Shown piece by piece: positions 8,002 to 54,613 of a stretch of 62,320 nt of DNA. Source of the stretch: a virus. The position numbers were made by a program, and so were the translations under genes. The notes beneath the pieces were generated by a model. The model did not search any database. It saw only the letters and a program-made list of their open reading frames with translations, and was not told where the DNA came from. The DNA is taken from IMG/VR virus record IMGVR_UViG_3300020419_000850, positions 1-62,320 of that record; one strand, written 5' to 3'. The first letter of the stretch is position 1. Each line of letters opens with the position of its first letter.

Positions 8002-9078
8002 CTATCTAATAGGTGGTACGTACATTACGCCACCGTTCTTCCAAAGATTATTTAATCCTCGTTCTAATGCAAGTGGAGTATTAGGTCCTACATTTCTCTC
8101 AAATGATTCCCCATAGTTTCCTACTTGTTTGATAATGTTATAACCAAATTTCATACCTAACCCTAACATAGGACCGATATAACCTTCAACACCTAATATT
8201 CTTTTAACTTCTTTTGATTTAGCAGTTAACATTTCATCAACATTTTTACTAGTGATACCTGCTTCTTCAGCATTAACCATAATAAAATGTGTCCATCTAA
8301 TTACATCTTCCCACTCTTGGTCGCCTTGTCTTACAAGTGGACCTAAAGGTTCTTTAGATATAATTTCTGGTAATACCATCCATTTACTTGGATCTTCTGC
8401 ACCAGACCTAGCACTTGCTAAACCAGAGGCGTCTGTTGTGAATACATCACACTCACCACCAAATAGTTTTGCTTTTGCTTCTTTATTACCTTCAACATAT
8501 ATTGGTCTATATGCCATATTGTTTTCTGCAAAATAATCATTTAGATTTAATTCACTTGTAGTTTCTTTTGTAATACATACAAACGCACCATCTAAACCTT
8601 TAGCACTTTTAATTCCTAATTCTGTTGGTATTAAAAACCCTTGTCCATCATAATAGTTAACTCCTGCAAATTCAAACATCAAGTTAACATCACGACTAAT
8701 TGTCCACGTTGTGTTTCTTGCAAGTACATCAATATTACCTGACGCTAATGTTGGAAATCTTTGAGCAGCATTTAATCCTACAAATTCTACTTTACTTGAG
8801 TCACCAAATACAGCAGCGGATACTGCCTTACAGAAATCAACATCTAAACCACTCCAAGTTCCACTCTCGTCTTGAGCAGAAAATCCTGGTAAGTTAGCAT
8901 TAACTCCACATATAACATATCCTCTCTCTTTCACTTGTTGAAGTAAACCTATTTCTTTTTCTACTACAACTTTTGAACCTTTATTACTATTACTAGTAAA
9001 AGCAACTGCTAAGAATACAGCTACTAACATCAAAACACCAATGATATTTTGAATACTCGTATGATTTATTTTTTTCAT
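8002..9078 (-). CDS. aapJ: Amino-acid ABC transporter periplasmic binding protein, AapJ/YhdW type
   Basis: A 358-aa protein reading through its whole length like general L-amino-acid binding proteins: RGYVICGVNANLPGFS, then WSGLDVDFCKAVSAAVFGD, RNTTWTISRD, NYYDGQGF, CDVFTTDASGL, VLPEIISKEPLGPLVRQGD and the C-terminal VGNYGESFERN...PLALERGLNNLW. The N-terminus has a hydrophobic anchor or signal (about residues 12-28). It should capture amino acids in the host periplasm and feed host permease subunits, none of which is encoded here. It lies among structural genes between the gp26 and candidate tape-measure genes. A strong host-derived gene call. Confidence 0.92.
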   Translation of the reverse strand: MKKINHTSIQNIIGVLMLVAVFLAVAFTSNSNKGSKVVVEKEIGLLQQVKERGYVICGVNANLPGFSAQDESGTWSGLDVDFCKAVSAAVFGDSSKVEFVGLNAAQRFPTLASGNIDVLARNTTWTISRDVNLMFEFAGVNYYDGQGFLIPTELGIKSAKGLDGAFVCITKETTSELNLNDYFAENNMAYRPIYVEGNKEAKAKLFGGECDVFTTDASGLASARSGAEDPSKWMVLPEIISKEPLGPLVRQGDQEWEDVIRWTHFIMVNAEEAGITSKNVDEMLTAKSKEVKRILGVEGYIGPMLGLGMKFGYNIIKQVGNYGESFERNVGPNTPLALERGLNNLWKNGGVMYVPPIR

Positions 9079-18150: not shown

Positions 18151-18179
18151 ACTATAACATATTTTCTAGTAAATGTAAA
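18151..18179 (-). promoter_or_regulatory. Sigma70-type promoter for gp33
   Basis: -35 TTTACA at 18174-18179, 17-nt spacer, -10 TATAGT at 18151-18156. Predicted start falls on or next to the gp33 ATG. It directly follows the 3' end of the tmRNA coding piece. Confidence 0.65.
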
Positions 18180-18430
18180 GTGTGTAGTTTCTGTTGCCAC
18201 GTACTACACAACGCCGTTTGCCTAGTAACTAGGCAGCAAGAGCTAAACTTTCGTTTGCTTTTATAGTTTTGATAGTACGCTATCAGCGATTTAACTCCAA
18301 ATAGTTTTAGTAGTAGTCGAATCTAACTCACCCCCTTAAAGCACACTATTATATGTGTTTTGAATTGGTGGAGGTGGTGGGAATCGCACCCACGTCCTCA
18401 CTAGTTATTATCTATTCTTCAACGTCAAAT
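18180..18430 (-). ncRNA. ssrA: Circularly permuted (two-piece) tmRNA gene
   Basis: Read on minus, the acceptor piece comes first (about 18430 to 18366): T arm GTGGG-TGCGATT-CCCAC (18377-18393), acceptor strand CACCUCC, discriminator A and encoded CCA ending at 18366. About 30 nt later the coding piece starts at 18335 with GGGGGUG, which pairs with CACCUCC as a 7-bp acceptor stem containing the G3-U70 pair recognised by alanyl-tRNA synthetase. GATTCGAC of the D-loop side follows. The tag reading frame (18229-18258), a stop-codon hairpin GCCTAG/CTAGGC (18220-18234) and a pseudoknot-like TGTGTAGT/ACTACACA helix (18181-18210) complete it. The ends of both pieces are approximate. Gene order is that of alphaproteobacterial tmRNA. 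Confidence 0.9.
18229..18258 (-). other. tmRNA proteolysis tag reading frame (ANESLALAA, stop)
   Basis: GCA resume codon followed by codons for A-N-E-S-L-A-L-A-A and TAG. The LAA end is the usual ClpXP degron of SsrA tags. The stop codon sits inside the GCCTAG hairpin, as in many tmRNAs. Confidence 0.88.
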
Positions 18431-18433
18431 TCA

Positions 18434-18841
18434 TTATAAATCTTTCCCTAATCTTGGTGGTTCAGTCCATTGTAAATCAAATGACTTATACATCATACAA
18501 GATTCTGTACCTGCCATATTAGTTACTACTGCTATTGATTGAGAAAAGTCTTCTGATATCCAGTAGGTAACGTAATATACAATTTGGTTTTCAGGTTTTG
18601 CATTCTCTCTTCCAACTGACATATTAGCCATTAGAAATTTATGATGTTTTAAATACTCTTCAACATATTCCTGTTTACCACAAATAACTGGCATTGACAT
18701 CCAATATAATTTTGCCATTTGGTCTTGTTCAGGCTGTAATGGTTCTATAGTATTAGGTGTTTCTGGTGTTTGCTCAGCTATAGCAACAGTACTCATTAAG
18801 AGTAATGCTCCAAAAATTAGTGATATTATTGTCTTGTACAT
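18434..18841 (-). CDS. Secreted protein of unknown function
   Basis: A 135-aa protein with a cleavable signal peptide (hydrophobic residues 5-20, likely cut after AIA-EQ near residue 22), then a Pro/Glu/Thr linker and a globular part with two Cys (PVICGKQEYVEEYL; GTESCMMY). Probably periplasmic. Its 3' end is next to the tmRNA acceptor piece. A TATAAATA occurs 79 nt upstream, inside the nuclease gene, and may or may not be used. Confidence 0.65.
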   Translation of the reverse strand: MYKTIISLIFGALLLMSTVAIAEQTPETPNTIEPLQPEQDQMAKLYWMSMPVICGKQEYVEEYLKHHKFLMANMSVGRENAKPENQIVYYVTYWISEDFSQSIAVVTNMAGTESCMMYKSFDLQWTEPPRLGKDL

Positions 18842-44496: not shown

Positions 44497-45220
44497 AATT
44501 TATTAATAATCTCCTTATTTCACTCCAAGTTCCTAAATCAACATAGTCTTTTACTTTAATTGCTTTACTACCATAGATAGGTGTTGATTTTATATCTTTA
44601 CCATTTACTTTCATTTTTAACGTAGATTTTTCCATAAAACTCATACAAGTATCAAATACTCGTCTTCTAAATCCAAATGCACACCAAAACGCATTATATA
44701 TACCTAATTTATTATTTTCAGGTTTATCGCAATAATCTAAAACTAAATTTTCAGCATTTATATTTAATGCACCTTTAGTTTTTAATACTGAATCATCTAA
44801 TTCTTCTTTATATAAAAATGTAAATCCTGTTTCTTGTAATGCTGACATAATTAAAGTATATAAATCTTGATTTGGTTGTAATGTCATTAATGTATCAGGC
44901 AATAAAACTATATTATGTTCTCCAAATAAAGGTCTAGCACTTTTAATTGCACCTGTATATTCTTGATGAAAAGGATTTTGATATATAAATGATATGTTAA
45001 ATTTACTTTTATATTTTGCTAAATAAGTTAATAGTTCTGGTTTGTCTTCATTAATAATAACTATAAATTCAACATCATTTCTTCCATAATCTCTAAAAAA
45101 ATTAAAACAATTATCAATCAAAGCATTATCATTATCTAATCGTAATATTTCTTTTGGATATGGTAGATTTAATCTAGTTCCTTTTCCAGCCGCTGGTAAT
45201 ATAACAGTTAATTTGCTCAT
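44477..45220 (-). CDS. Sugar-1-phosphate nucleotidylyltransferase-like
   Basis: A 247-aa protein starting TVILPAAGKGTRLNLPYPKEIL, the G-x-G-T-R-L signature, with LLPDTLMTLQPNQ and ALNINAENLVLDYCDKPENNKLGIYNAFW. Member of the RmlA/UgpC fold; substrate not clear. It may supply NDP-sugar for the glycosyltransferases. Confidence 0.8.
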   Translation of the reverse strand: MSKLTVILPAAGKGTRLNLPYPKEILRLDNDNALIDNCFNFFRDYGRNDVEFIVIINEDKPELLTYLAKYKSKFNISFIYQNPFHQEYTGAIKSARPLFGEHNIVLLPDTLMTLQPNQDLYTLIMSALQETGFTFLYKEELDDSVLKTKGALNINAENLVLDYCDKPENNKLGIYNAFWCAFGFRRRVFDTCMSFMEKSTLKMKVNGKDIKSTPIYGSKAIKVKDYVDLGTWSEIRRLLINYEKDNN

Positions 45221-45501
45221 TTCACACTATAAAAAGTATATTTTAAAGTTAACTCTTCCCCTTTTTTTATATCTCTTATACTATAGAGATAATACTTGTT
45301 ATCTTTTTTTATTTTTATTGTATTTGGTTCATCACTATGATTAACGAAACCTCCTAATGGAGTTCTTATTAATTCAGGACCTACAATCAACCAACCTAAT
45401 CCTATCTTTGTATTGTCATCAATATCTTCTTTTGCAAATAATCCTTCTCCGTGAATTTTGCTCATTTTAATTTGCACTTCTCTTGGTAATGGTTGATACA
45501 T
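45217..45501 (-). CDS. SET-domain protein-lysine methyltransferase
   Basis: A 94-aa minimal SET domain: KIHGEGLFAKEDI near residue 15, GGFVNHSDEPNTIKIK (NHS at 54-56, SAM and pseudoknot residues), DIKKGEELTLKY (GEELT, 81-85). Only the SET core is left, with no pre- or post-SET Cys clusters. It might methylate a host or phage protein. Confidence 0.8.
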   Translation of the reverse strand: MYQPLPREVQIKMSKIHGEGLFAKEDIDDNTKIGLGWLIVGPELIRTPLGGFVNHSDEPNTIKIKKDNKYYLYSIRDIKKGEELTLKYTFYSVK

Positions 45502-46591: not shown

Positions 46592-46854
46592 TAATATAAC
46601 CTATTACGACCTATTTCTTTACCTGTTTCTTTATCAATACATCTATGACCAGCAAGTCTATATCTTTTACCATCTTCACCTAACCAATAATCACCACCAG
46701 CCCATAAACCTTTTTCGGGGTCTAAATCATCAATAAACTCTACACCGTTTTTTTCGTAAATAGCACTTGCGTTTAGTTGACAATTCTTAATAGATTCATC
46801 ATAAGGAAACTCAAGCATTCCTAAACCATAAATTAAAATTTCTATAACTTTCAT
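46591..46854 (-). CDS. Uncharacterised 87-aa protein
   Basis: Contains EKGLWAGGDYWLGEDGKRYRLAGHRCIDKETGKEIG, a beta-rich stretch with a single Cys. N-terminus mildly hydrophobic (EILIYGLGMLEF). Linked to neighbours by short overlaps. Unknown. Confidence 0.5.
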   Translation of the reverse strand: MKVIEILIYGLGMLEFPYDESIKNCQLNASAIYEKNGVEFIDDLDPEKGLWAGGDYWLGEDGKRYRLAGHRCIDKETGKEIGRNRLY

Positions 46855-47168
46855 ATATTTAATTCAAAAACATCAAACTCAATGCCTTCTAACTCTTTTG
46901 GTTTACCTTTAGGGTAGTCAGGCCAAATCTGGAATTCTTCTCCTGTTGTATCACTTTTGCAACCTGCAACTAACCAATCCCATTTAAACTCTCCATCTAC
47001 AACAAACTCGTTCATCACTTCGTATCTTCCATCTGGTTTTTGTAAAAGTAATTCTTTTTTACACTCTTCCATACTTTTATACCAACCTTCCATTTGAAAA
47101 GTTTGTTGTGTTTCTATTGGACTATGCCCAATTAGATATGCAAGTATTAATATTTTAAAGTCGCCCAT
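46851..47168 (-). CDS. Probable secreted 105-aa protein
   Basis: A short hydrophobic start (FKILILAYLIG), then SMEECKKELLLQ and VAGCKSD, with two Cys that could pair. It is directly downstream of the TonB-dependent receptor gene. A periplasmic or inner-membrane role is possible. Confidence 0.5.
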   Translation of the reverse strand: MGDFKILILAYLIGHSPIETQQTFQMEGWYKSMEECKKELLLQKPDGRYEVMNEFVVDGEFKWDWLVAGCKSDTTGEEFQIWPDYPKGKPKELEGIEFDVFELNI

Positions 47169-47170
47169 AA

Positions 47171-48790
47171 TTAAAAAGATTTACTAAACCCAAAAGTAAT
47201 TCTCCTTTCATTTTGATTAAATCCGTGAGGTGATTCATATTTTTCATTTAAAACGTTAGTCATACTTAACCCTATATCATAACCATAATAATTTTTTGTC
47301 AAATTTAAATCTAACAAGTGAGTTTCTGGCATAGATATTGTACTCCAATTACTATTATGTATATCTAAATGTTCACCTTTAAATTTATAATTTGTAGTTA
47401 AAGATAAAGTATTATTAAAATCATAATTATGCATAAATCCTAAATTCCATTCTGGTCTTCTTAAAGATACTATATCTTTTTTCTTACTATTTAGATGACT
47501 AGCAAAAACCTTAAAATCTTTACTACCATAACTCAATTCTAAACCGTCAGTATTTAAATCTCCTATATCATTTTTAAATATAGTTGTTGTAAAATTATTA
47601 TAATCTAAACTTATCTCCTGTGAATTACCATACTCTATATCTGTCCAAGTTGTTTTATCTTTATAACTTGTAGAGTGATTACCTCTTAAATTAATACCAT
47701 CATCTAAAGATTTAAAAAATCCTATCTTATAAGTATCGTGTTCTTCATCAAATCTATGATGATATGAAAATATATTATGAGATAAATTAAAGAAGTATCC
47801 TAGATTATGATGTTGACTTGCTAAGGATTCATTGTGTTTGTAATCAAAACCAAAACCATATTTTTCTTTTTGATGTGTTCCTCTTATAGTATAGTTTTCA
47901 CTTTCATAATGTGAATCATCATAATCTCTATCATATTCGTGTGTATGAAAAGTTAAACTGTTATTTAAATAATCAAAACCTGTTTGTAAAGCATAGAAAC
48001 TATTATCTGCCCATTTACCATCTTGTATAGAAACATTATGTCCATCTAAATCAGTAAATGTATTTCTTGTAAAGAAACTTGTTCGCCAATGTACAAGGTC
48101 ATACCACTTACTAACATTAACTGCAACTGATTTATTATCTGTTCCATCTTTTTCATTTGCACCTGATAAAGCGGAAACATTTTTTGATTTATGATGACCT
48201 GCTGAAACAGATATATCATAACCATCTATATTAGTATAATAATTACCACTTATTGTTTTATCATTATCTGCACCTGATACATTAATCTTTTTTGCATAGT
48301 CTACTGTTGTTATAAAGTTTATTGCACCTCCAACAGCGTCTGCTCCCCAATGAGCACCAGCAGACCCTTTATACACATTTATTTGCTGAACATTAAACAT
48401 AAAGTCTTGACCAACATCATACGCACCTGTAGGTGTAGAGTAATCATTTATTGGAATACCATTTAATAAAACTAGTGTATGGTTAGAATTAGTTCCTCTT
48501 AAAAAAACAGAACCTTGTTGTCCTGTTGAACCTGATTGAGAGATATCAACACTTTGTATATAATTAAGCACTTTAGGTAAATCTATTAATTTATATTTTT
48601 CTATTTGATGTTTAGTTATTTTAAATGTAGGTGATACTTTATCTCCTAATGAGTTTGAATTGTTTATGTTTGGATATATTGTAAGACAAGGTGGATCATC
48701 ATCCCAGTTACAAGAATCCGCATACGCTACATTTGTCATCATAAAAATAAATAATATTAATATTTTAAAGTTTCTCACCAATTTTTTCAT
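47171..48790 (-). CDS. TonB-dependent outer-membrane receptor, BtuB-like
   Basis: A 539-aa protein (BtuB 614 aa) with signal peptide ending in AYA-DS (about residue 24). The plug domain is clear: LPKVLNYIQSVDISQSGSTG, QQGSVFLRGTNSNHTLVLLNGIPI, INVYKGSAGAHWGADAVGGAINFIT. The rest has alternating beta-strand pattern with Tyr/Phe girdles and ends FSKSF, the C-terminal Phe used for outer-membrane insertion. No obvious TonB box was found. It would be a ligand receptor made by the phage. Strong family call. Confidence 0.92.
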   Translation of the reverse strand: MKKLVRNFKILILFIFMMTNVAYADSCNWDDDPPCLTIYPNINNSNSLGDKVSPTFKITKHQIEKYKLIDLPKVLNYIQSVDISQSGSTGQQGSVFLRGTNSNHTLVLLNGIPINDYSTPTGAYDVGQDFMFNVQQINVYKGSAGAHWGADAVGGAINFITTVDYAKKINVSGADNDKTISGNYYTNIDGYDISVSAGHHKSKNVSALSGANEKDGTDNKSVAVNVSKWYDLVHWRTSFFTRNTFTDLDGHNVSIQDGKWADNSFYALQTGFDYLNNSLTFHTHEYDRDYDDSHYESENYTIRGTHQKEKYGFGFDYKHNESLASQHHNLGYFFNLSHNIFSYHHRFDEEHDTYKIGFFKSLDDGINLRGNHSTSYKDKTTWTDIEYGNSQEISLDYNNFTTTIFKNDIGDLNTDGLELSYGSKDFKVFASHLNSKKKDIVSLRRPEWNLGFMHNYDFNNTLSLTTNYKFKGEHLDIHNSNWSTISMPETHLLDLNLTKNYYGYDIGLSMTNVLNEKYESPHGFNQNERRITFGFSKSF

Positions 48791-49334
48791 AATATGCTTT
48801 TGCTATATACCAACTATCAACTATATCTGATACTGGATTGTTTGCTTTTGTTGTGTCTAATAATTTCTTTAAATCTGTTTTTGTATCTTTACAAAATTGT
48901 TCATACATCATTTCTTTATCTGCATTACCTTTACCTGTAGCAAGTTTCTTAACAACACTTGGTACAATAACACTATATTTGTATTTTTGTTCTGCTAATC
49001 TATATTTAAGTATGCCACAATTTTCTGCTATTTGAAATAATGCTTGACCTTTAGAACCATAAGAATAGTTTTCTATTGCTATTGCTAATGTATCTATATT
49101 GTCTTTAGAGTGATTTAATCTTAATATTTTTAAAACCCAATCAGAAATTTGAGTAAATCTTTGGATAGGGTCTGTATAAGGTTGATGTTCATAACCAATT
49201 ATATTACCAAATTTGCCCATATGTTTTTTCTTATTAGTAAGAAAATAGAAATGACTATATTCAAACTTAAAATCATTTGTAACACATATGGCAGGACTTG
49301 TTAAACTATAATCAATCCCAACTAGTTTCTTCAT
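48765..49334 (-). CDS. RuvC-like resolvase/nuclease
   Basis: A 189-aa protein from the ATG at 49334 (KKLVGIDYSLTSPAICV), with motif I Asp near residue 7, AIAIENYSYGSKGQALFQIAENCGILKYRL (Glu), KLATGKGNADKEMM and PVSDIVDSWYIAKAYY (final Asp pair). RNase H-fold Holliday-junction resolvase pattern. Upstream in-frame ATGs overlap the zinc-ribbon gene. Likely a recombination or packaging function. Confidence 0.75.
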   Translation of the reverse strand: MKKLVGIDYSLTSPAICVTNDFKFEYSHFYFLTNKKKHMGKFGNIIGYEHQPYTDPIQRFTQISDWVLKILRLNHSKDNIDTLAIAIENYSYGSKGQALFQIAENCGILKYRLAEQKYKYSVIVPSVVKKLATGKGNADKEMMYEQFCKDTKTDLKKLLDTTKANNPVSDIVDSWYIAKAYYEKIGEKL

Positions 49335-49494
49335 TATCATCTCCAATTTCATCTTCATCTTCATCTATTTCATAACTACAAAACGGACAAGACATAGGTT
49401 TCATATCTGTTTCTTCTTCATCATATTTTATAGTGTAAGACACCTTACAATTGCCACAACTTAACCTAATGCTCTTTACTATTTCATCTTCCAT
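49312..49494 (-). CDS. Zinc-ribbon protein (60 aa)
   Basis: Two CxxC knuckles, LSCGNCKVSY and MSCPFCSYEI, about 22 residues apart, then a very acidic tail (DEDEDEIGDDNEETSWD). Fits a small zinc ribbon. Could contact DNA or RNA polymerase; function unknown. Confidence 0.7.
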   Translation of the reverse strand: MEDEIVKSIRLSCGNCKVSYTIKYDEEETDMKPMSCPFCSYEIDEDEDEIGDDNEETSWD

Positions 49495-49508: not shown

Positions 49509-50612
49509 TTATAATTTAAATTTCTTAAACTGATCCTTTTGTACATCTTGTTTAATACCACCTATCACATAACTTTCAATTTCTGTTTCCTGTGGTGCAT
49601 TTTGTAATGACCTACTATTTAACCAATGGTCAACCCAAGGTAATGGATTTACTTTTTGGTCATATTGTGGTTCTAATCCTATTGCTCTCATACGTCTATT
49701 TGCCATATACTCTACAAATTGATGTAATAATTTTTCTGAAAGTCCTATCATAGAACCTTTAGAGAACAAATAAGTCGCCCAACGTTTCTCTTGTCCTACT
49801 GCATTTTCATACATTGTATAAACTTCTTTTTCTGTATCTTTCATCACTTTATTCATAATTCTATCATTTTCATTATCACGATAGTTATTAAGTATTCTTT
49901 GTGAGATTGATAAATGTAAAGTTTCATCACGTGCTATTAATGATAATATTTTAGCAGAACCTTCTAACATTTTTAATTCTCCAAATGCAAACGAACACGC
50001 AAAAGAAACATAAAATCTTAATCCTTCTAATATATTAACAGTCATCAATGTTAAATATAATTTCTTTTTCAACTCATACATATCAACACTATCTGGTTTT
50101 AATTGCCATTTATAACCTAAATTTATCATATCATCATATCTTTGTGTTATACTAATTGCTCTTTTCTCAATCTTTTCATCTGAAATTATAGTATCAAAAA
50201 CTTCACTAGGATTTGAATATAAATTTTTAATGATATATGTATATGAGTGTGAGTGTATGTTTTCAAAAAAGTCCCACGCAAGAACACAACTCTCTAATTC
50301 AGGTATTGAAACAAAAGGTAAAAATGCTAAAGCAGGTCCTCGTCCTTGCACACTATCCATCATTGTTTGATATTTTAAATTAGATGTAAAGATAAACTTT
50401 TGTTGTTCATTTAACTCTTTATAGTCTGATATATCTTTCTGTAAAGATACTTCTTCTGGTCTCCAGAAGTAACCTAATTGTTGTTGAAAGAGTTTATTAA
50501 AGATAGGATATTTCATTTCATCATATCTTTGTACTTGTAAATCTTGACCAAAAAACATAGGTTGTTTAGTATAGTCTAATTTTTTTTCTGTATTAAATAC
50601 GCTTTTAGTCAT
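49509..50612 (-). CDS. nrdB: Ribonucleotide reductase class Ia beta subunit
   Basis: A 367-aa NrdB: TMMDSVQGRGP (Asp86), WDFFENIHSHSYTYIIKN (Glu117, His120 and radical Tyr124), LEGLRFYVSFACSF and ARDETLHLSISQ (Glu, His ligands). All diiron ligands visible. It generates the tyrosyl radical for NrdA in deoxynucleotide synthesis. Confidence 0.93.
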   Translation of the reverse strand: MTKSVFNTEKKLDYTKQPMFFGQDLQVQRYDEMKYPIFNKLFQQQLGYFWRPEEVSLQKDISDYKELNEQQKFIFTSNLKYQTMMDSVQGRGPALAFLPFVSIPELESCVLAWDFFENIHSHSYTYIIKNLYSNPSEVFDTIISDEKIEKRAISITQRYDDMINLGYKWQLKPDSVDMYELKKKLYLTLMTVNILEGLRFYVSFACSFAFGELKMLEGSAKILSLIARDETLHLSISQRILNNYRDNENDRIMNKVMKDTEKEVYTMYENAVGQEKRWATYLFSKGSMIGLSEKLLHQFVEYMANRRMRAIGLEPQYDQKVNPLPWVDHWLNSRSLQNAPQETEIESYVIGGIKQDVQKDQFKKFKL

Positions 50613-51285: not shown

Positions 51286-53601
51286 TTAAATTACACAGGT
51301 TTCACATTCTTCTTCGTCTTTTATCTCCGTTATAGTTTTGGATTCTGGTACATCATCTTTCCAACCGATAGGATGTACAGGTTCCTCTATATCTTTCTTA
51401 CTATCATATGTGTTTTGATAATAAGAAGTCTTCCAACCTAATTTATAAGTTGTTAGTAAATCTTCTGCCATTATTGATAAAGGTATTTCTCCTTCATCAT
51501 AATTTTCAGGATTATATGACCAATTACCACTAATTGATTGGTCAAAATATTTTTGCATTACTGCTACTATGTTTATATATCCTTCATTACTTTTCATATC
51601 CCATAATAACGTATAATTATTTTTTAATTTTTTGTAATCAGGTACAACTTGTTTTAAAGTACCTTTCTTACTCTTCTTAACTGAAATATAATCTCTAGGT
51701 GGTTCAATGCCGTTTGTGGCATTACAAACCACGCTAGAGCTTTCAGAAGGCATTTGAGCCGTGAGTGTGCTATGTCTTAACCCAAATTCCTTAATATCTT
51801 TCCTCAAGTCTTCCCATTTATATGAAAGTTTCCGAGATACAATCTCATCAACTTCTTTTTTGTAGGTGTCTATTGGTAAGATACCATCTGAATACTTTGT
51901 TTTGTCAAATGCTTCGCACTTGCCTTTTTCTTTTGCTAATTCATTACTAGATTTTAATAGATAATACTGGAATGCTTCTGATAACTTATCTACTTCTTTC
52001 CAAGCAGTTTTAGTTTCATAACCAAGTCCTAATGTTGCTAAGTAGTGAGCAAGACCTATATATCCAATTCCTAAACTTCTTCGTCTTTTTGTAGAAATTT
52101 CTGCCGCTTTAACTGGATATCTTTGATGGTCTATAACTTCGTCTAATGACCTTACTGCTAAATCGCATAAGGTTTCTAATTCATCTAAATCTTTTAAAAG
52201 TCCTACATTAACTGCTGATAAAATACATAATGCAATTTCTCCTTCACCATCTATATGACTTATTGGGTCTGTAGGTAAAGTAATCTCTTGACATAAGTTA
52301 GACATATAAACTCTATCTTTAAAACTAGAGTGTGTATTACAATGGTCTATATTCATAATGTAAATACGACCTGTTTCTGCTCTTTCTTTTAAAATTGCCA
52401 TAAACAATTGTTGTGCTGATATTTTAGTTTTCCATACACTAGTTTTTCTTTCTGCCGTTGTATATAGTTCGTCAAATTCTTTTGTTCCCCACGCTTCATA
52501 CAATTCTGGTACTTCGTGTGGTGAAAATAAAGTTATCTCTTCATCATTAATAAATCTTTCATAAAATAATTTTGATAACTGTATAGAGTAATCTAATTTT
52601 CTTACTCTATTATCTTCACTACCTTTATTATTTTTTAAAACAATTATATCTTCTATTTCTTTGTGCCAAATAGGGAAGTGAACAGTTGCCGACCCTCCTC
52701 GTACTCCGTTTTGAGTACAACACTTAACAGTTGCTTCAAATTTTTTAAGAAAAGGAATAACGCCAGTATGTTGTACTTCGCCACCTCTAATACGTGAGTT
52801 GATCCCTCTAATTCTTCCTGCATTGATACCAATTCCTGCTCTTTGGGCAACATACTTACCAATGGCCATATCACTAGAAAAGATACTAGACAAAGTATCA
52901 TCAACATCCACCAAGACACAACTCGCATACTGCCTAATAGGAGTTCGTACACCAGCCATAACAGGTGTTGGAATATTGATTTTAAAACGTGAAATAGCGT
53001 CATAATATTTTTTAACATAACTCATCCTTTTGTTCTTTGGGTATTTTGCAAATAATGTAGCAGATATCATCATATACATAAATTGTGGTGTTTCAAAAAT
53101 TTGTCCTGTACTTCTATCTTGCACTAGATATTTGTCAATGACTTGTCTTAAACCTGCATATGTAAAAGTATAATCTCTTTCGTGATTTAACCAATTTTCC
53201 ATTCTATCAAAATCTTTTTTATCATACCAATTTAAAACTTCTTTATCATAAACACCTAACTCAATGCATTTTTTTGCGTGGTCGTAAATATGTGGATGAT
53301 CCCACATTTTATGAAATAGTTGTTTTCTTAAACTATAGAGTAATAGTCTAGCGGCAACATATTGATAATTTGGATTTTCTAAAGTGATTAAATCGTTTGC
53401 TGATTTAATTAAGATTTGTTGAATTTCGTTTGTTGATATGCCATCATAAAATTGTAGACCACTATTCATTTCTACAGAAGAAGCAGAAACTTGCGTTATG
53501 TCTTCACACGCATATTCTACCATTTGATGTATCTTTTCAATGTTTAGAGATTCCTTACCTCTACCATTTCGCTTCACTACACTTATATTCTCATTCACCA
53601 T
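51286..53601 (-). CDS. nrdA: Ribonucleotide reductase class Ia alpha subunit
   Basis: A 771-aa NrdA with an N-terminal ATP-cone-like start (ISVVKRNGRGKESLNIEKIHQMV), ASCVLVDVDD (active-site Cys), GIGINAGRIRGINS, NLCQEITLP (thiyl Cys), and TAQMPSESSSVVCNATNGIEPP. The C-terminal CETCVI (Cys766, Cys769) is the redox pair reduced by glutaredoxin. It makes dNDPs. Confidence 0.95.
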   Translation of the reverse strand: MVNENISVVKRNGRGKESLNIEKIHQMVEYACEDITQVSASSVEMNSGLQFYDGISTNEIQQILIKSANDLITLENPNYQYVAARLLLYSLRKQLFHKMWDHPHIYDHAKKCIELGVYDKEVLNWYDKKDFDRMENWLNHERDYTFTYAGLRQVIDKYLVQDRSTGQIFETPQFMYMMISATLFAKYPKNKRMSYVKKYYDAISRFKINIPTPVMAGVRTPIRQYASCVLVDVDDTLSSIFSSDMAIGKYVAQRAGIGINAGRIRGINSRIRGGEVQHTGVIPFLKKFEATVKCCTQNGVRGGSATVHFPIWHKEIEDIIVLKNNKGSEDNRVRKLDYSIQLSKLFYERFINDEEITLFSPHEVPELYEAWGTKEFDELYTTAERKTSVWKTKISAQQLFMAILKERAETGRIYIMNIDHCNTHSSFKDRVYMSNLCQEITLPTDPISHIDGEGEIALCILSAVNVGLLKDLDELETLCDLAVRSLDEVIDHQRYPVKAAEISTKRRRSLGIGYIGLAHYLATLGLGYETKTAWKEVDKLSEAFQYYLLKSSNELAKEKGKCEAFDKTKYSDGILPIDTYKKEVDEIVSRKLSYKWEDLRKDIKEFGLRHSTLTAQMPSESSSVVCNATNGIEPPRDYISVKKSKKGTLKQVVPDYKKLKNNYTLLWDMKSNEGYINIVAVMQKYFDQSISGNWSYNPENYDEGEIPLSIMAEDLLTTYKLGWKTSYYQNTYDSKKDIEEPVHPIGWKDDVPESKTITEIKDEEECETCVI

Positions 53602-53617
53602 TTTTATTTACACACTC

Positions 53618-54613
53618 CTAACATTTCTTATAATAGTTTAATTTCGTTAATGCCTCTAATTTGCTAAATGTATTCTTACTTATAATATCTATTAACTCTT
53701 CTCTTTTCATACCACTCATAATCATTTCATTTACATCTTTAAGTTGCACATCATTTGGCCAAACAACTACGTTGTAATCCTTTTCAACTACTGCGTACAT
53801 CCTTTTTATGATTTCTTTATTACGAGGTTCGTTGTCAAATATATATGTAACTTGGTCACTTGACACTCTCAATGTTAAGTCAGCACCACCTGCCGCTAAA
53901 CAATTATCTAAAAACAAACTATCAAGTGGTCCTTCAACTATGTAAATATGTTTTTGATAATTTACACGTTCAAGTCCATATACTTTTTGTTTTGTTTCAT
54001 CAAGTTTAATAGTAACATATTTTGGTTGTTCTTTTCCAAAAGCTCTGCCTTGAAATGCAAACAACTTACCAGTTACATCAAAGAAAGGTATAATTAATCT
54101 AGGGTGTTCATATCTTTCTTTAAAAGTTCCTGGTTTCACTTTATTGGCAAAATTGTGAAATTTGTCAACAAAATAAATTATCTCATAATATTGTGGAGGT
54201 ATCAATCTTTTCTTTACGTACTCCTTTACAGGATGTCCGTCTTTTAACGTACTTACTTTAGTACAGGAATCTAATAAATTTGTTTCTTCAAATTTTGTAG
54301 GTTTAAAGTCAAATTTAGGTTGGGGCGTGGATGGTGCCGATCCCTTGTATCTCTCTAATAAGTATTCTCCGTATTTTTTAGGATCCAAGAATTTAATGAA
54401 ATTTGCTAAATTCTGACCCATACCACAATTGTGGCATTTAAAGAACATATCGTTTTTTACTCTATAAAGATATGCTCTTGCTTTAGTCTTACTTTTCTGT
54501 GAGTCTCCACAATGTGGACACCTAAAATTGAAAAGATAATCTGTCTTCTTTTTAAACTTATCCAATCCTGAAGAGATTGAATTAATATACTTTAAATCTA
54601 TATAACTTGACAT
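53618..54613 (-). CDS. 61: DNA primase gp61
   Basis: A 331-aa primase (T4 gp61 342 aa): zinc finger FRCPHCGDSQ...FFKCHNCGMG (Cys32, 35, 60, 63), then LIIPFFDVTGKLFAFQGRAFG and Toprim IYIVEGPLDSLFLDN (Glu, DxD-like) with VTYIFDNEPRNKE. It lays RNA primers for lagging-strand synthesis. It is the first gene of the long early operon; no Shine-Dalgarno and a very short leader. Confidence 0.9.
   Translation of the reverse strand: MSSYIDLKYINSISSGLDKFKKKTDYLFNFRCPHCGDSQKSKTKARAYLYRVKNDMFFKCHNCGMGQNLANFIKFLDPKKYGEYLLERYKGSAPSTPQPKFDFKPTKFEETNLLDSCTKVSTLKDGHPVKEYVKKRLIPPQYYEIIYFVDKFHNFANKVKPGTFKERYEHPRLIIPFFDVTGKLFAFQGRAFGKEQPKYVTIKLDETKQKVYGLERVNYQKHIYIVEGPLDSLFLDNCLAAGGADLTLRVSSDQVTYIFDNEPRNKEIIKRMYAVVEKDYNVVVWPNDVQLKDVNEMIMSGMKREELIDIISKNTFSKLEALTKLNYYKKC

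Follow-up and report, generated by a model that had tools for sequence, protein, structure and literature searches.

A BtuB-like TonB-dependent transporter encoded by a T4-like pelagimyophage and its probable role in cobalamin import

Results

The receptor gene and its product

The 62,320-base virus record IMGVR_UViG_3300020419_000850 (the whole stretch analysed here, hereafter the window) encodes at 47171-48790, on the minus strand, a protein of 539 amino acids that is a real and complete TonB-dependent transporter (TBDT), with BtuB as its nearest family by both sequence and fold. An original prediction, made from the sequence alone, had described this open reading frame (ORF) as a phage-encoded, BtuB-like TBDT. 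The ORF exists as described, including its terminal aromatic residue (Phe, in a C-terminus reading ...KSF), and the family assignment was supported by the profile and structure searches given below. A possible alternative start is a GTG at codon 5, where the locus L001 has ATG (three-digit labels beginning with L or G denote loci and SAR11 genomes of the present analysis). The protein, all parts of which are encoded on the minus strand, begins with a putative signal peptide, as read from the sequence (residues 1-24, MKKLVRNFKILILFIFMMTNVAYA; 48719-48790), followed at the position expected for a TonB box by the motif C27-x-W29-x5-C35-L-T-I38 (48677-48712), a candidate TonB box with a Cys pair. 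Next come a Plug domain (residues 56-156; 48323-48625), which is supported by Pfam and by alignments, and a 22-strand barrel delimited on the structure model (residues 168-538; 47177-48289), in which the extracellular loops L4-L8 (residues ~291-411) are shorter than their SAR11 counterparts.

The original prediction had proposed searching for a plug domain, a 22-strand barrel, a phylogenetic link to SAR11 receptors and relatives in other phages, and each was found. The Pfam Plug family PF07715 matched residues 56-156 over its cut-off (E 1.8e-18; 67.5 vs. 23.9 bits), the top PDB sequence match was E. coli BtuB (E 2e-19, residues 50-166), and the top NCBIfam model was TonB-B12 (TIGR01779; E 1.1e-23, 83.6 bits), while haem and siderophore receptor models also matched the plug at weaker scores. 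TonB-B12 matched near full length, with E values of 5e-44 to 1e-50, in a long viral form (L154) and in two SAR11 receptors (L036 and L037), all three of which are likewise under the TIGR01779 cut-off. The structure model, built from a 56-sequence alignment, has a mean predicted local distance difference test (pLDDT) score of 88.2 and a predicted template modelling (pTM) score of 0.87, and shows a plug within 22 strands; it superseded an initial model built on 14 close sequences, which was poor (pLDDT 36.8). The first 12 Foldseek matches to the model were all BtuB entries (E 1.6e-27). Using VIA-align, E. coli BtuB gave Z scores of 37.4-42.1, the best of these with 476 residues aligned at a root mean square deviation of 1.9, and the first row other than E. 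coli BtuB was the Bacteroides B12 receptor BtuB3 (Z 35.5); of the siderophore receptors listed, FyuA scored highest (Z 35.4), and the listed haem receptors were at Z ~33. Among predicted viral structures in BFVD, a single match was found at E<=0.001, a SusC of an uncultured marine phage with 12% identity. The protein is BtuB-like by the tests run, yet it lies outside the formal TonB-B12 equivalog family.

Phage identity and gene neighbourhood

The tail, baseplate, single-stranded DNA (ssDNA)-binding and primase genes of the window form a T4-like complement. Identity to Pelagibacter phage Mosig (host HTCC1062) is 85% for the ssDNA-binding protein and 84% for NrdA, and identity to HTVC008M is 63 and 78%, respectively. 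The window phage is a T4-like pelagimyophage close to Mosig, and because these two proteins are so similar to those of Mosig and HTVC008M, its host is probably SAR11.

The receptor gene belongs to a run of genes on the minus strand. Directly upstream is a gene for a RuvC-like resolvase (48765-49364; phrog_159, 7.5e-31; 59% to the annotated RuvC of Mosig), which overlaps the receptor ORF by 26 nt, and therefore an intergenic leader is absent. Further upstream are genes for an NrdB-like ribonucleotide reductase beta subunit (49509-50612; 76% to the annotated beta subunit of Mosig), an NrdA-type large subunit (51286-53601; PF02867, PF00317 and PF03477; 84% to the annotated alpha subunit of Mosig) and a DNA primase (53618-54613; phrog_451, unnamed, 7.1e-88; phrog_47, DNA primase, 4.3e-78), and 3 nt downstream of the receptor end lies a 105-amino-acid gene of unknown function (46851-47168), which is retained in L001, L002 and L033. 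The run primase-nrdA-nrdB-ruvC is common to Mosig and the window, and ruvC is followed by the receptor in the window and by two annotated methyltransferases in Mosig. A tblastn search with the receptor against 19-kb stretches of Mosig and HTVC008M returned nothing at E<=1e-3. It is from this gene order that we infer early production of the receptor during infection, as the original prediction did.

Elsewhere in the window, the phage encodes a permuted alphaproteobacterial transfer-messenger RNA (tmRNA; 18179-18480, minus strand) with the tag ANESLALAA, and two-piece tmRNAs are known from related phages according to the parts of PMC9004378 consulted. A 94-residue SET-domain protein is encoded at 45217-45501 on the minus strand.

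Viral relatives and ancestry

Viral contigs were scanned twice, yielding 34 and 74 receptor loci, the larger set containing the contigs of the smaller, with 42-93% identity to the window protein. The full-length viral receptors fall into 19 clusters at 90% identity, and several distinct gene neighbourhoods were seen among the 21 viral loci laid out. In L001, L002 and L033 the receptor is 93% identical to that of the window and has the same neighbours in the same order. The closest cellular relatives found, by alignment scan, are in Pelagibacteraceae (SAR11) genomes (19 loci, 30-36% identity); a single-protein scan of genome contigs gave six pattern matches, none of them a relative. The plug stretch RGTNSNHTLVLLNGIPIND of the window receptor is also present, by alignment, in SAR11 L036. 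In a maximum-likelihood tree, made by quick search with Shimodaira-Hasegawa-like approximate likelihood ratio (SH-aLRT) support only, the representatives of the 19 viral clusters group in a single clade (SH-aLRT 98) that is sister to 28 SAR11 representatives (99), with the SAR11 rows L180 and L181 outside this pair and L154, which comes from a viral contig of 172 kb, basal among the viral representatives.

The gene appears to be maintained by selection, with ratios of nonsynonymous to synonymous substitution (dN/dS) of 0.04-0.38 in seven of nine whole-gene pairs, the synonymous rate not being computable in the other two; the plug of the window-L001 pair has a dN/dS of 0.72, resting on very few changes. 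The original prediction had judged a mis-assembled host fragment unlikely, and this was borne out, because L001, L002 and L033 share the neighbours of the window and the ruvC-like gene overlaps the receptor. Misassembly or host contamination is rejected on these features together with the 74 loci, mostly purifying selection and the varied phage neighbourhoods.

A phage collection of 50,697 records gave 38 matches at E<=10, none of them in a Pelagibacter phage and none covering 80% of the receptor; coverage reaches 29% at most among the 30 matches listed. Partial BtuB matches came from Salmonella phage S.Kent 1-2-1, Acinetobacter phage MD-2021a and two Salmonella genome records, which were rejected as phage relatives because they resemble bacterial contigs. 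More generally, the records H1-H5 and H28-H36 of this collection have btuB- or cirA-like matches, and several of them resemble bacterial contigs labelled as phage.

Cobalamin context of the SAR11 receptor family

Across 297 SAR11 genomes, the receptor profile matched 39, some of these matches covering the C-terminal part only and marking a second receptor type. The family DUF6580 was found in 58 genomes, including all 39 with the receptor. The cobalamin riboswitch AdoCbl-II (RF01689; originally described as AdoCbl-variant and 'Marine' in the part of PMC2864571 consulted) was over its cut-off in 48 genomes, comprising 44 of the 58 with DUF6580 and 4 of the 239 others; another cobalamin riboswitch family was detected in 21 genomes, two of them over cut-off. 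The B12-binding domain PF02310 was found at E<=1e-3, the limit of the tool itself, in 126 genomes (55/58 with DUF6580 vs. 71/239 others) and at E<=1e-5, a limit chosen after the 1e-3 results were known, in 84 (54/58 vs. 30/239). The SAR11 genomes, as well as the viral contigs, are mutually related, so that Fisher values overstate independence.

At the level of individual loci, an all-Rfam scan placed AdoCbl-II directly upstream of the receptor ORF in four of eight SAR11 loci (L037, L038, L040 and L047), the riboswitch being under threshold or absent in L036, L043, L049 and L054. A DUF6580 gene is present in 16 of the 19 SAR11 receptor loci, immediately after the receptor in 15 of them and at a distance of 4 kb in L054, and among the three loci without it, the fetched stretches of L039 and L041 stop <=0.5 kb from the receptor; Pfam assigned the family in all four SAR11 loci scanned. 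Upstream radical S-adenosylmethionine (SAM) genes of L037 and L054 have a B12-binding domain over the Pfam cut-off. Taken together, the SAR11 sister family looks like a cobalamin system.

DUF6580 (e.g., L036:9900-10412) is a small membrane-like protein whose occurrence in SAR11 follows that of the receptor, of the cobalamin riboswitch and of B12-binding proteins, and its profile had no match among PDB sequences up to E 10. It is a candidate inner-membrane corrinoid transporter. The second SAR11 receptor type, with the C-terminus-only match (e.g., in G029, G030 and G108), adjoins DUF6580 with AdoCbl-II near. In L052 (7992-14342), the receptor N-terminus opens an ORF of 2117 residues, either a fusion or an assembly error.

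Riboswitches and radical SAM genes in viral loci

For riboswitches and PF02310, 48 viral records were scanned, namely the window together with 47 contigs, predominantly longer ones, from the set of 74. AdoCbl-II was found over cut-off in 14 of these records, representing 4 of the 19 clusters, and in all 14 the riboswitch ends 21-82 nt before the receptor start (with the start of L154 taken at the codon at position 8013, and the gap of L158 read off the printed sequence). When nine viral aptamers were aligned with four from SAR11, 17 pairs were predicted, nine of them with compensatory change, and two that are broken in two to three sequences.

The viral loci also carry radical SAM genes. The ten neighbours first scanned (eight viral, two SAR11) are all radical SAM proteins, and the B12-binding domain was detected at E<1e-3 in eight of them, three of which exceed the cut-off. 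ORFs similar to these ten seeds occur in 44 of the 74 viral receptor loci compared with none of 80 control loci, which surround the ssDNA-binding gene in related phages, a comparison in which eight of the ten seeds were drawn from the same viral loci, biasing it against the controls, and in which the control sequence was shorter (603 vs. 939 kb). With the two SAR11 seeds alone, such ORFs were found in 21 of 74 receptor loci and 0 of 80 controls. A radical SAM ORF is present in a fetched locus of 14 of the 19 viral clusters. PF02310 itself was detected at E<=0.01 in 18 of the 48 receptor records (nine over cut-off; distant from the receptor in L094) vs. none of 34, these being the control records scanned out of the 80 and amounting to 480 kb compared with 2.17 Mb of receptor records. 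For L140, L146 and L111, the nearest NCBIfam models are radical SAM methyltransferase families, several of them named as B12-binding or methylcobalamin-dependent, all below cut-off. L154 has four elements in a row, namely the riboswitch, the receptor, a thyX-like gene, and a radical SAM gene that matches the B12-binding domain.

Other neighbours were observed in single viral loci or a few of them. A sufB gene, a SufC-like ABC ATPase gene and a Thy1 gene lie directly upstream of the receptor in L140 (4184-8011), genes for a NifU-like scaffold and uroporphyrinogen decarboxylase (nifU and uroD) lie downstream of it in L145 (6843-10056), and a rubrerythrin gene is near it in L131. In L125 (9569-11643), the receptor is followed by a TctA-family permease, an assignment scanned in that locus, and by a 258-amino-acid protein that has a signal-like N-terminus and matches no family, an arrangement as in an uptake system; L122 and L127 are similar.

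Changes in the viral protein and the candidate TonB box

Viral receptors are shorter than those of SAR11, with 18 of the 19 viral representatives at 517-562 amino acids and SAR11 receptors mostly at 614-649. Mapped on the model, the sums of median differences amount to 50.5 extracellular and 28 periplasmic residues lost. The extracellular loss lies in L4-L8 (4, 11, 5, 15, and 17 residues, respectively), L2, L3, L9, L10 and L11 being altered by <=2 residues, and almost every segment of L154 is about as long as in SAR11. Of the extracellular loops, L10 is the most conserved among the viral receptors (0.86 vs. 0.56 in SAR11). Identity to 18 SAR11 sequences is 47-55% in the plug and 27-36% in the barrel. 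The shortened loops are compatible both with a receptor that other phages no longer recognise and with a streamlined importer.

After the signal peptide, the pattern C.[WF].{2,9}[PS]C..I occurs in 18 of 19 viral representatives, L154 included, and in 26 of 28 SAR11 representatives, and within it PC[VLIT]xI is conserved at the place before the plug where a TonB box is expected. Because the motif C27-x-W29-x5-C35-L-T-I38 lies at about what we take to be the position of the TonB box in BtuB, we treat it as a candidate TonB box with a possible disulphide, although PC[VLIT]xI presumably does not fit the classical consensus.

Discussion

A probable phage-borne cobalamin importer

The computed fold and ancestry of the receptor, together with the riboswitch and gene associations computed for its relatives, lead us to infer that it is likely a phage-borne importer of cobalamin (vitamin B12 or a close corrinoid) acquired from SAR11; substrate and energisation, as well as timing and benefit, are proposed on this basis. 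The original prediction had offered nutrient uptake, blocking of superinfection by replacing or masking the phage receptor, and a decoy as options. Among these nutrient uptake is favoured, and the SAR11 sister family, with its associated riboswitch and neighbouring genes, points to cobalamin as the likely nutrient; masking keeps some weight through the shortened L4-L8. Cobalamin binding and transport by the window protein are suggested by the riboswitch and gene context of relatives, and the function of the window copy would rest on these relatives because the window has neither the riboswitch nor a recognised B12 enzyme in its 62 kb.

Several observations weigh against a cobalamin importer, beginning with the window itself. 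The window receptor is far under the TonB-B12 equivalog cut-off (83.6 vs. 599.7 bits), and the AdoCbl-II aptamer is absent from the window, the sole Rfam match near the receptor up to E 1 being a snoRNA family at E 0.22. Its 62 kb, less than half of the Mosig genome (141 kb), have no PF02310 match and no ORF like the ten radical SAM seeds, and it encodes a ribonucleotide reductase of the NrdA/NrdB type, a type not known to depend on B12. DUF6580 was found neither in the viral loci nor in the window. Among the relatives, the commonest radical SAM neighbour (417-465 amino acids) matches PF02310 in two of eight cases (E 2.4e-4 and 7.6e-3, below cut-off) and has no match in the other six, and this weak type is the one found in L003 and L010, two of the three riboswitch-bearing clusters besides L154. 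Of 36 radical SAM-bearing loci with a record scanned for PF02310, 17 have the domain in that record and 19 do not; PF02310 by itself misses some B12 enzymes of this kind, with none detected for L129. Fe-S or tetrapyrrole genes are found close to the receptor in L140 and L145, 258 of the 297 SAR11 genomes lack a match to the receptor profile, and ligand binding could have changed since L5, L7 and L8 lost 11-17 residues each.

Energisation is a further point on this side. The original prediction saw no clear TonB box and suggested that the receptor may not be energised. The conserved N-terminal motif weakens this suggestion, but a scan of 40 SAR11 genomes, of which 20 carry the receptor, detected no TonB_C, compared with 3 of 14 control genomes; TonB_2 was found in two of the 40, neither with the receptor, and in one of the 14 controls. 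TonB-dependent receptors occur in SAR11 genomes without a recognised TonB C-terminal domain, and SAR11 may have a divergent TonB, or these receptors may work otherwise.

Alternative to import, the protein might serve superinfection control, as a look-alike of the host receptor with shortened phage-binding loops, such that later phages lose their docking site or bind an unproductive decoy, and uptake is secondary or lost. We regard this as unlikely, even though several observations favour it: the shortening is strongest in the extracellular L5, L7 and L8 with fold and plug kept, TBDTs including BtuB serve as phage receptors, the VIA-align rows include FhuA complexes with the T5 receptor-binding protein and with the superinfection-exclusion lipoprotein Llp, and SAR11 L036 has a GDP-mannose dehydratase family gene next but one to the receptor, with other sugar-like neighbours in SAR11 loci as judged by eye. 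It leaves unexplained the cobalamin riboswitches before viral copies, since a decoy needs no vitamin switch, as well as the radical SAM neighbours and the strong conservation of the plug and L10. An importer of iron, haem or another large nutrient, serving phage-encoded Fe-S, Fe-dependent or radical SAM enzymes, would be consistent with the sufB and SufC-like genes of L140, nifU and uroD of L145, rubrerythrin of L131 and the permease of L125, and with the plug matches to haem and siderophore receptor models; radical SAM enzymes require Fe-S clusters in any case. We find such a substrate improbable, as the upstream riboswitch belongs to a cobalamin family in Rfam, BtuB exceeds FyuA and the haem receptors in structural Z score, TonB-B12 outscores the haem and siderophore models, and each of the neighbours named occurs in few of the loci laid out. 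That the gene is a non-functional hitch-hiker, or host contamination in the assembly, might be argued from the phage collection, which has no record covering 80% of the protein, and is exceedingly improbable given 74 viral loci at 42-93% identity under mostly purifying selection, the ruvC overlap, the same gene order in three other contigs and the several phage neighbourhoods.

Proposed mechanism and significance

For the cobalamin importer that we favour, we propose that a SAR11 phage lineage acquired from a host a BtuB-like transporter of SAR11, probably along with the cobalamin riboswitch, and kept the plug, the TonB-box-like N-terminal region, the barrel and the loops L2, L3 and L9-L11, with a later loss of much of L4-L8. 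During infection, the protein would be exported and inserted in the outer membrane of the host, raising the supply of corrinoid for phage radical SAM enzymes, which are near the receptor in many relatives and in part have a B12-binding domain, or for host enzymes. In riboswitch-bearing relatives, cobalamin binding would shut the gene off, plausibly at translation because the start codon closely follows the aptamer, and production of the receptor would be restricted to infected cells that lack sufficient B12. For the window lineage, the receptor would be made with the primase-nrd-ruvC run regardless of B12, because of the 26-nt ruvC overlap and because no aptamer was found. The inner-membrane step would be supplied by the host, given that DUF6580 was not found in viral loci.

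It is possible, if short of probable, that SAR11 phages carry a portable B12 module, in which an outer-membrane importer is combined with a riboswitch that senses cobalamin and with radical SAM enzymes that depend on B12. Phages with the riboswitch would then monitor the B12 supply of the infected cell and build the importer under shortage, the window lineage would make it constitutively, and the shortening of L4-L8 may hide a working importer from phages that use the host version as their receptor. If the proposed import holds true, viruses of the most abundant bacteria of the ocean regulate how these cells are provisioned with a vitamin across the outer membrane during infection, and a scarce ocean vitamin is tied to infection. 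The analysis gives a likely function to a gene family found across several phage neighbourhoods, points to a viral RNA switch that is testable in vitro, suggests a substrate for DUF6580 and raises the question of how SAR11 energises such receptors.

Comparison with known systems

E. coli BtuB (TIGR01779; PDB 1nqh and 2gsk) is the closest match to the window receptor in both fold and plug, and shares with it the 22-strand barrel, the N-terminal plug and the candidate TonB-box position. The window receptor differs in being phage-encoded, in having an N-terminal Cys pair, in its 16-21% identity in structural alignments, in its score far below the equivalog cut-off, and in its L4-L8, shortened relative to SAR11 homologues. 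The SAR11 receptors (Pelagibacteraceae, L036-L054) are the sister clade, with the same N-terminal motif and plug core and a riboswitch in common with some viral copies, whereas they are mostly longer than the viral proteins and are linked to DUF6580.

In the phage literature, of which the papers cited here were consulted in part, the marine megaphage Mar_Mega_1 encodes a TBDT that was likewise proposed as an uptake gene, but it is of the SusC type and was proposed for carbohydrate uptake (PMC9723777), and the marine-phage SusC in BFVD shares 12% identity with the window receptor in the structural alignment. The pelagiphage Skadi also has an annotated TBDT in a SAR11 phage, but its gene is flanked by those for the tail tube and the capsid and was interpreted as pointing to the adsorption receptor (PMC10504331). 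Phage Melnitz and Mosig, the relative of the window phage, carry a glutamine riboswitch, tied in Melnitz to a tmRNA gene, and the host of Melnitz has a cobalamin riboswitch ahead of btuB, no phage cobalamin riboswitch being described in the part consulted (PMC9004378). A pelagimyophage survey reported radical SAM cassettes and, in the portion consulted, no riboswitches from Riboswitch Scanner (PMC7029224), and elsewhere cobS and cobT are cited in pelagimyophages and curli channels are speculated to import cofactors such as cobalamin (PMC9599517). In the open-licence literature searched we found no report of a phage B12 importer or a phage cobalamin riboswitch, and such reports may exist elsewhere. 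Phage-encoded TBDTs are already known, and what the present analysis places beside them, as a set otherwise unreported in the literature searched, is a phage TBDT tied to B12.

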